Shown: positions 15,424 through 17,755 of the stretch, one piece after another
Numbering within the stretch: position 1 is the first letter of the stretch
How the letters are laid out: each line of letters starts with the position of its first letter
Assembly (NCBI GenBank): GCA_029261395.1
Contig: JAJDBJ010000067.1
Span: forward strand, 1 to 64,000
Direction: 5' to 3'
DNA from: Nitrospinaceae bacterium
Lineage (GTDB): Bacteria; Nitrospinota; Nitrospinia; Nitrospinales; Nitrospinaceae
Length of the DNA stretch: 64,000 bases
The notes under the pieces: model-generated
Seen by the model: only the letters and a program-made list of their open reading frames with translations
What the model was told of the DNA's origin: nothing
The model's database searches: none
Position numbers and translations under genes: made by a program

Positions 15424-16683
15424 ATGACCGATTCATTGACCCGCATTTTATTTCAAAAGCTCGTGGCCATGGGCGGGGACGATTATGAAAATGGCGAGCT
15501 CGTCATTGATCAAGGCCGCATTGTGGAAGTGCGTTCGGGAGTCAGTGAATCGTTTGCCGGAGTCACACACGACTGGTCAGACTGTCTGATCCTTCCCGGT
15601 TTCGTCAACGCCCACTGCCACTTGTCACTGTCCGGATTGCAGGGCAGGGTTGCCCGGCAGGAACGATTTGTCGATTGGATCGAAACGGTGGTGGCCGAAA
15701 ACTCAGCTCTCTCCTGGCGCGACCGGGTGGATGCCTTTCATCGGGAAGCGCAGACGCTGGTCGAATCCGGAGTCACAGCGCTGGGCGATTATTTTTCACA
15801 TCCCGAATTGCTGGTGGAATATCAAGCCCTGCCGTTTCGCCAGATGCTGTTTCTGGAGACTCTCGGTTTCCAGTCAGGACTGGCAGAAGAAAAAGCCCGG
15901 TCGGTGGAAACCCTTCTGCGGGAGCATCCGGCAGGAGCCGGTTCTCTCCTTCAACTGGCAGTGGCACCGCATGCCCCTTATTCCGTATCACCTGCCCTGT
16001 TTAAGGAATTGAAAAGCCTGGCGGATAAGCTGAATTGCCGTTATTCCTGTCATGTCGCGGAAGTGGAGGAGGAAACCCAATTTTTGAGCCGGGGAGAGGG
16101 CGATTTTCTTGAGCTTCTCACTAAGCGGGAAGCCTATGATTCCTCCTGGACTCCTCCCGGCGTGAGTCCCGTCCGGTATCTGGAGCAGTTGGGCGTATTG
16201 CGGGATATGGTCGCTATCCATTTGAATTATTTAGAGGAGTCCGATTTGAACCGACTGGCTGAAAATAATGCCAACGCAGTATTTTGTCCCGGCAGTACCC
16301 GTTGGTTTGGGCGCAAGGCCTGGATGCCGGTGAAAATCCTGCTGGATTTGGGGGTTTCCGTGGGAATCGGCACTGACTCACTGGCAAGCAACGACTCACT
16401 GAATTTCCTCGATGAAATTCGATTATCGGAAGAAATGGTGCCCGAATTGCATCGCTCGGAAATTCTTTGGCTGGCTACAATCGGTGGGAGCCAGGCATTA
16501 GGTATTGAAAAAATGGGGCTTGAGTCCGGCCAGCCAGCGGATCTGATAGGTTTTCGGTTCGGCAATTCAGAGGAAGACTGGTGGAACCTGCCATTTGACC
16601 CGGTCCGGCGGCAAGTCGACTTTTCGATGGTTGCGGGAGAGGTTATTTTTCAGAAGTCCAATATTAAAGGGGGAAAGCAGTAA
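15424..16683 (+). CDS. Amidohydrolase-superfamily deaminase, possibly aminofutalosine deaminase-like
   Basis: A 419-residue metal-dependent hydrolase. Metal ligands appear in order: the HxH motif NAHCHL (His64, His66), SCHVAE, AIHLNYL and GTDSLASND. This is the cytosine-deaminase/chlorohydrolase branch of the superfamily. The stretch LPGFVNAHCHLSLSGL with a later FVDWI resembles aminofutalosine deaminases of the alternative menaquinone pathway, but no other mqn gene is nearby, so the substrate stays open. GAGG lies eight bases before the ATG. The gene begins 24 bp after the PDZ repeat protein and may be cotranscribed with it. Confidence 0.8.
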   Translation: MTDSLTRILFQKLVAMGGDDYENGELVIDQGRIVEVRSGVSESFAGVTHDWSDCLILPGFVNAHCHLSLSGLQGRVARQERFVDWIETVVAENSALSWRDRVDAFHREAQTLVESGVTALGDYFSHPELLVEYQALPFRQMLFLETLGFQSGLAEEKARSVETLLREHPAGAGSLLQLAVAPHAPYSVSPALFKELKSLADKLNCRYSCHVAEVEEETQFLSRGEGDFLELLTKREAYDSSWTPPGVSPVRYLEQLGVLRDMVAIHLNYLEESDLNRLAENNANAVFCPGSTRWFGRKAWMPVKILLDLGVSVGIGTDSLASNDSLNFLDEIRLSEEMVPELHRSEILWLATIGGSQALGIEKMGLESGQPADLIGFRFGNSEEDWWNLPFDPVRRQVDFSMVAGEVIFQKSNIKGGKQ

Positions 16684-16860
16684 CCTCTTTTATCAGGGTG
16701 ATTTAGGTTGTTTTGGGTGAAAAACGAGCAGAGTGAGGAAATAAAGGATAAACCCTTAAAAAAACTTGTCCTTCCGTTAGTTTTCATGATAACTTGTAGC
16801 CTGCCGATTGTGACAGAAAGTTGGGGGCTTCTTGCCAAAAGATTTATTTCTCTTTTTTTA
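16684..16860. other. Intergenic, nothing recognised
   Basis: An A+T-rich stretch between the amidohydrolase and the candidate small RNA. No credible reading frame, tRNA or strong hairpin was seen on either strand. Confidence 0.5.
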
Positions 16861-16990
16861 TTGCACAAATCATAAACAAAACGTAAGATAGCGGTTTTCA
16901 TTTTAGTCGCGAGTGGCATAACCCTGTGAATTGGGGCGCCCATTTGTAATCAGCCGGTCAGGGACCGTTGTCCCTATGCCAGCTTTTTTT
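16861..16990 (+). ncRNA. Candidate structured small RNA with its own promoter and terminator
   Basis: A possible promoter TTGCAC (16861-16866), 17 bp, TAAGAT (16884-16889) precedes a sequence whose ends pair: TGGCATA (16914-16920) with TATGCCA (16975-16981). Inside is the hairpin AGGGAC-cgtt-GTCCCT (16960-16975). Seven T follow directly (16984-16990), as in an intrinsic terminator. The transcript would be about 95 nt. I cannot match it to 6S, SRP or another named RNA. It could instead be just a terminator before the tRNA genes. Confidence 0.4.
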
Positions 16991-17085
16991 ATTTTATATG
17001 GTGTTGGTGCAGGGGTGCGACCTGTTGGGACAGGAATTTATATAGCGAGTGAGACATAGCGGGGGGTAAATACCTCTCAGAAGCT

Positions 17086-17170
17086 GGGGAGATTCCCGAG
17101 TGGCCAAAGGGAACAGACTGTAAATCTGTCGGCTCCGCCTTCGGAGGTTCGAATCCTCCTCTCCCCACCA
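17086..17170 (+). tRNA. tRNA-Tyr (GTA)
   Basis: The acceptor stem GGGGAGA pairs with TCTCCCC. The anticodon GTA lies at 17120-17122 within ACTGTAAAT. There is a long variable arm, as expected for bacterial tRNA-Tyr, and TTCGAAT in the T-loop. CCA is encoded (17168-17170). First of three closely spaced tRNA genes. Confidence 0.95.
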
Positions 17171-17189
17171 CTAATTAATACTAAAATAT

Positions 17190-17266
17190 GCGGGAATAGC
17201 TCAGTTGGCTAGAGCGTCAGCCTTCCAAGCTGAGGGTCGAGGGTTCGAGTCCCTTTTCCCGCTCCA
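17190..17266 (+). tRNA. tRNA-Gly (TCC)
   Basis: The acceptor GCGGGAA pairs with TTCCCGC. The anticodon loop CTTCCAA gives anticodon TCC. The T-loop is TTCGAGT, and the 3' CCA is encoded. It lies 19 bp after tRNA-Tyr. Confidence 0.95.
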
Positions 17267-17317: not shown

Positions 17318-17392
17318 GCCCACGTAGCTCAGTGGTGGAGCACTTCCTTGGTAAGGAAGAGGTCATCGGTTCAATCCCGATCGTGGGCTCCA
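17318..17392 (+). tRNA. tRNA-Thr (GGT)
   Basis: The acceptor GCCCACG pairs with CGTGGGC. The anticodon stem CTTCC/GGAAG encloses loop TTGGTAA, anticodon GGT. The 3' CCA is encoded. In many bacteria a tufB gene follows this tRNA; here rpmG follows instead. Confidence 0.95.
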
Positions 17393-17497
17393 TATTTAAG
17401 GGTTAAGTTGATTGAGGGCGGCAGGGTCGTCTTTTGGGTGGTTTAACGGAAGTAATAGCAGGCCCGTTTGGAGCGGGCCGGGAACGGGTTTGAGGCG

Positions 17498-17647
17498 ATG
17501 AGGGACATTATTCATTTGGCATGCGGCGAGTGTAAGCGCAGGAATTATTCCACAACGAAAAATAAAAAGAAGACTACGGATCGACTGGAGTTTAAAAAGT
17601 ATTGCCGTTTCTGCCGACAGCACACTCCTCACAAAGAAACCAAGTAA
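17498..17647 (+). CDS. rpmG: 50S ribosomal protein L33
   Basis: A 49-residue ribosomal protein. It reads [20 protein letters not shown] and continues through a lysine-rich middle to [15 protein letters not shown]. The two Cys pairs (CGEC and CRFC) make it a zinc-binding form. Placement between tRNA-Thr and tRNA-Trp/secE is the usual rpmG-secE-nusG order. A GGCCCG/CGGGCC hairpin (17461-17479) precedes it, and the only SD-like sequence (GAGG) is unusually close to the ATG. Confidence 0.95.
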
Positions 17648-17755
17648 GGGATCAGCGGTTGTCGGATCTGGCCGGGGTGACCGGCGCGGATCGGGTGAGC
17701 CGTTTTTTGGCCGGATGTCCCAACCTTGAGTTGGCCTTGTTATGAACAGTTTAAT

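Follow-up and report, generated by a model that had tools for sequence, protein, structure and literature searches.

The window, i.e. the whole 64,000-nucleotide stretch of Nitrospinaceae DNA that was analysed, has a gap between the gene at 15424-16683, which we take from its translation to encode an amidohydrolase-like protein, and the tRNA-Tyr gene starting at 17086, and the element described here sits in this gap (Table 1). It is followed by the tRNA genes for Tyr, Gly and Thr and, after tRNA-Thr(GGU), by a small L33-like frame, a tRNA-Trp gene and then secE-, nusG- and rpl-like genes, all of these frames being named presumptively from their translations. In enterobacteria the corresponding operon also lies ahead of the secE-nusG-rplK region, but there tufB follows thrT, while the window has the L33-like frame in that place. 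In 17400-17750, between tRNA-Thr(GGU) and tRNA-Trp, we found no EF-Tu frame and instead the L33-like one at 17468-17647.

Table 1: Features of the element and its neighbourhood, in window coordinates.
Feature	Position	Strand	Basis
Conserved non-coding block upstream of promoter	16753..16850	.	84-95% identity to window in four close genomes
Sigma-70-like promoter, assigned as old tRNA-operon promoter	16861..16889	+	TTGCAC, 17-nt spacer, TAAGAT
Conserved leader ahead of presumed tRNA remnant (GGTTTTCATTTT)	16893..16904	+	11/12 columns invariant in five close genomes
Eroded 5' half (putatively the old D arm with the 5' strands of acceptor and anticodon stems)	16905..16941	+	divergence like spacer
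Degenerate tRNA-Thr(UGU) gene, thrU position (assigned)	16912..16987	+	covariance-model match and synteny
Putative former anticodon TGT	16945..16947	+	alignment of genus orthologues
Terminator-like hairpin, assigned to former 3' half: AGC/GCT, GGT/GCC, AGGGAC/GTCCCT	16952..16984	+	seen in 6/6 genus genomes
T7 run, replacing discriminator base and CCA end	16984..16990	+	T7 in 5/6 genus genomes, TTTATTT in G002
tRNA-Tyr (tyrU position)	17086..17170	+	ARAGORN, Rfam
tRNA-Gly(UCC) (glyT position)	17190..17266	+	ARAGORN, Rfam
tRNA-Thr(GGU) (thrT position)	17318..17392	+	ARAGORN, Rfam

The initial annotation had proposed an independent small RNA of roughly 95 nt at this site, resembling no RNA family and delimited by a promoter-like pair, a 7-bp closing stem, an inner hairpin and a T7 run. 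Direct reading of the sequence places the -35-like TTGCAC at 16861-16866 and the -10-like TAAGAT at 16884-16889, and the pair was rightly noticed: its hexamers are identical in all six aligned genomes of the genus, with a spacer of 18 in G002. A simple consensus scan did not list a promoter at 16861..16889, the -35 matching the consensus at only three of six positions. Several relatives carry TTGACA-17-TAAGAT at the equivalent position of their intact operons, and we assign the window pair as the conserved promoter of the tRNA operon. From a predicted start about 7 nt past the -10 hexamer to the T run the distance is about 95 nt, so that a transcript of the proposed length is indeed possible, with both the promoter and the 3' hairpin conserved.

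The non-coding block further upstream shows 69% identity in G002 and was found in seven of the eight genus genomes, counting the window's own and including G007. It has no Rfam match and its open frames are not conserved across six genomes. It may act in upstream activation, or may belong to a second transcript having its own promoter-like pair (TTGTCC-18-TAACTT).

Homology to thrU and loss of tRNA function

Using 16840-17180 as query, matches of about 80% identity to the region around 16942-16984 were obtained in at least 36 of 100 genomes, the full-length matches of the genus itself uncounted; the same search also matched tRNA-Tyr itself. At the matching loci that we sampled, an intact tRNA-Thr(UGU) gene lies between the operon promoter and tRNA-Tyr, and such an intact gene precedes tRNA-Tyr in G009 of the same family, in many relatives of the order and beyond. 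A covariance model was built from 17 of the 23 distinct tRNA-Thr(UGU) sequences, leaving out five copies not of the operon type and the distant L062. This thrU model scored 24.5 bits on the window element (16913-16987; E 7e-5 in a search space of 86 kb), and on its orthologues 26.3 (G003), 30.6 (G004), 45.8 (G005) and 48.3 bits (G001); the most diverged orthologue, G002, was missed in the standard search and reached 11.5 bits with filters off (361 bases searched). The locus is assembled in six of the eight genus genomes, as the contig of G007 ends within the promoter and G006 yielded no hit.

An Rfam search, which the initial annotation had suggested, returned no family for the window element at the gathering score or at E 10, while two orthologues matched the tRNA model at 27.4 and 23.1 bits, below its cut-off of 29. 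Judging from the thrU model together with synteny, the element is a decayed tRNA-Thr(UGU), the remnant of thrU as former first gene of a thrU-tyrU-glyT-thrT operon. The statement that it resembles no RNA family was therefore wrong, and of the reading as an unknown small RNA the promoter, the hairpin and the T run hold up, but not the unknown ancestry.

As far as can be told from its sequence, the locus is dead as a tRNA. The D-loop GG is kept in register in none of the six orthologues, and each of the four stems of the window copy (acceptor, D, anticodon, T) contains broken pairs, so that no cloverleaf is left. ARAGORN called no tRNA at the element. The high thrU-model scores that G001 and G005 retain (48.3 and 45.8 bits) would fit a still active but odd tRNA, a reading we regard as extremely improbable: T-loop TTC and CCA end are absent in all six orthologues, the acceptor end is mispaired in most, Rfam gives no tRNA match in the window element even at E 10, and the anticodon differs between species, being TGT in three orthologues, TAT in G005, CGT in G001 and different again in G002. 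As these losses are common to the six orthologues, the loss of function probably preceded their split.

The loss also bears on the 7-bp closing stem. Its two strands, TGGCATA at 16914-16920 and TATGCCA at 16975-16981, are present in the window as described, but they do not form a conserved helix: 30 of 42 cells are paired across the six orthologues, and the compensating changes expected in relatives are missing, none being two-sided. The minimum-energy fold of the 94-nt transcript does not contain this stem either, which is a relic of the acceptor stem that is no longer maintained.

An intact tRNA-Thr(UGU) of different sequence is encoded elsewhere in the window genome (G000:C75). By pattern search, intact copies away from the operon were found in five of the eight genus genomes and in all three of the sister genus g2, the three genus genomes without such a second match being 70-78% complete. 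Genus g3 (G009, 72% complete) showed the operon copy only. The two g2 operons that we read lack thrU wholly and retain the operon, and comparison of the g2 leader with the thrU model recovered no trace of the gene (2.2 bits). In G018, belonging to another family (genus g7), no thrU was found before tRNA-Tyr; its leader (L012 1584-1830, minus strand) holds a possible independent thrU remnant of only 3.2 bits, and a terminator-like site is also there.

Divergence of the two halves and the 3' hairpin

The two halves of the dead gene differ in how fast they change. Averaged over pairs of the five closest genomes, the difference amounts to 0.253 for the 5' half and 0.233 for the spacer behind the T run, as against 0.098 for the 3' half and 0.071 for the T tract. 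A contrast as extreme as that between 5' and 3' half arose in 17 of 5000 column permutations and one as extreme as that between spacer and 3' half in 19 of 5000, whereas for 5' half versus spacer the number was 1823 of 5000. At fourfold sites of the upstream gene the difference is 0.414 (136 shared columns), and the contrast of these sites with the 3' half was reached in 0 of 3000 permutations; as all non-coding parts evolve more slowly than these sites, the spacer is the fairer yardstick. The 5' half drifts like the adjoining spacer, while conservation marks the 3' half and the T tract. No folding excess was seen in 16905-16945 (z +0.33, 121 of 200 shuffles as good). A long 5' hairpin folds well in G001 and G005, but was rejected as it is missing from the window copy and from G003.

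The retained 3' half looks like a terminator hairpin, termination itself being predicted. The 42-nt hairpin folds with -15.7 kcal/mol against a shuffle mean of -7.6 (z -4.1, equalled by 0 of 200 shuffles), and the five of six genomes that were tested gave z values of -4.1, -2.8, -2.9, -2.4 and -5.5. It is found at the same place in all six genomes (-14.7 to -20.8 kcal/mol), with 71 of 72 cells paired. The inner hairpin pointed out by the initial annotation, in which 16960-16965 pairs with 16970-16975, thus belongs to a structure conserved in the genus, and the T7 run is likewise present. Taken as a whole, the 94-nt transcript folds less exceptionally (z -1.9, equalled by 10 of 200 shuffles). 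The element shows the stable G+C-rich hairpin directly before a T run by which intrinsic terminators are recognised, and only three sites on both strands of the window, this one included, satisfy a strict filter for hairpin plus T tract. The outer pairs can also form in the intact gene of G009, where no T run follows. In a lenient terminator scan of 47 loci, sites appeared in 25 of 36 with the intact gene and in 9 of 11 without it, many of the former lying upstream of that gene; due to this lack of discrimination the scan, which also misses the hairpin of G002, was not used as evidence.

These data have to be weighed against a plain pseudogene, in which the promoter persists for the sake of the downstream tRNAs, the rest is a passive leader and the 3' conservation is due to chance or to a weak role in RNA processing. 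We consider this unlikely. It agrees with a 5' half indistinguishable from spacer, with the broken cloverleaf, with the g2 relatives that keep the operon without thrU, and with the weak covariation of the hairpin, where 8 of 12 pairs are invariant, a two-sided change occurs in one and the overall signal does not exceed that of shuffles. It does not account for a 3' half that differs from both spacer and fourfold sites in the permutations given above, nor for G002, in which several changes combine into a continuous longer stem and not into a decayed one, although the T tract is weaker there (TTTATTT, tail score 4.1).

It could also be imagined that an independent trans-acting small RNA has been recruited from the dead tRNA, as has been considered for a pseudo-tRNA of Bacillus cereus. 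The conserved promoter, the 5' leader with 11 of 12 columns invariant and the terminator-like end do delimit about 95 nt, and a precedent exists in that pseudo-tRNA, which is reported to affect gene expression (PMC3399842). As the middle of the RNA, in which base pairing with targets might be sought, is the most variable part, the 5' half has no common fold and no conserved fold with compensating changes extends over the whole RNA, we hold this to be improbable.

Further structures lie in the leaders of this and the sister genus. Between the remnant and tRNA-Tyr (17001-17059) several genus genomes show a second, weaker hairpin (CCTG...CAGG) with a T-rich stretch. A simple scoring matrix with unfitted weights revealed no conserved promoter between the T run and tRNA-Tyr. 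In g2 the region from operon promoter to tRNA-Tyr (L028 520-757 and L029 520-763) contains a long hairpin of -36.4 and -34.5 kcal/mol, respectively, followed by T7, and in these two leaders hairpin and T7 lie about 105 nt before tRNA-Tyr, a distance as in the window. The resemblance could result either from shared descent or from chance.

Proposed fate of thrU and comparison with known systems

The explanation that we favour, and regard as moderately probable, is that of a dead thrU whose 3' half serves as a terminator or attenuator behind the old operon promoter, releasing a leader RNA of about 95 nt. A second tRNA-Thr(UGU), such as the one present elsewhere in the genome, would first have taken over the ACA codons, and in the genus ancestor thrU would then have been stripped of its translational features, as the losses common to six genomes suggest. 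The operon promoter, conserved in sequence, was retained, and the 5' half would have been left to the drift seen in the neighbouring spacer. Already in the intact tRNA the 3' half is able to form AGC/GCT and GGT/GCC pairings that enclose the T arm; with a T7 run gained in place of the CCA end it has been kept as the conserved terminator-like hairpin, at which transcripts are predicted to end.

Transcription starting near 16896 would reach this hairpin some 95 nt further on. With a full terminator in this place, the tRNA genes would depend on read-through or a second promoter. Because the tRNAs lie downstream and no other conserved promoter was seen, we propose a partial terminator or attenuator, at which some transcripts would stop and others read through into tRNA-Tyr, tRNA-Gly and tRNA-Thr, the short RNA being mainly a by-product. 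The more specific idea that thrU, by exchange of CCA for a T run, became an attenuator which sets the output of the essential operon and gives off a short RNA is put forward here only tentatively. A leader terminator may also be a shared way of tuning the operon after loss of thrU in both the genus and g2.

The element illustrates that what looks like an orphan small RNA can prove to be a dead tRNA gene, and that comparison with sister genera exposes its identity at once. One tRNA gene can here be followed in a series of intact, eroding and deleted states, with one half under constraint. If termination proves true, this would be a clear case of a tRNA gene that has come to act as a regulatory stop signal for the operon it once belonged to; the open-licence papers considered, represented mostly by titles and abstracts, contain no description of a thrU gene turned terminator.

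In gene position and in the order tRNA-Thr(UGU), Tyr, Gly, Thr the locus resembles the thrU operon of Salmonella, for which PMC6134099 gives thrU-tyrU-glyT-thrT-tufB, identical in E. coli. The same paper describes thrU of Salmonella as probably essential because no other tRNA is predicted to read ACA, whereas thrU of the window is degenerate.

With the tRNA-Other pseudo-tRNA of Bacillus cereus the element shares, as described in PMC3399842, an inactive tRNA-like gene possibly recruited into another RNA. tRNA-Other, however, flanks a genomic island and lies inside longer iron-responsive RNAs, while the window element stands first in a tRNA operon and has a terminator-like hairpin at its end. 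A non-tRNA piece of a tRNA transcript with a possible function also recalls the 3' external transcribed spacer that acts as a sponge of small RNAs (Lalaouna et al. 2015, as cited in PMC5391140). That sponge is a spacer within the transcript of live tRNAs, and the window element is in contrast a dead tRNA gene leading live ones. Finally, the G+C-rich hairpin with T7 directly after it is like that of intrinsic (Rho-independent) terminators, but unlike the usual ones it appears to go back to a tRNA 3' half and stands before the structural genes instead of after them.
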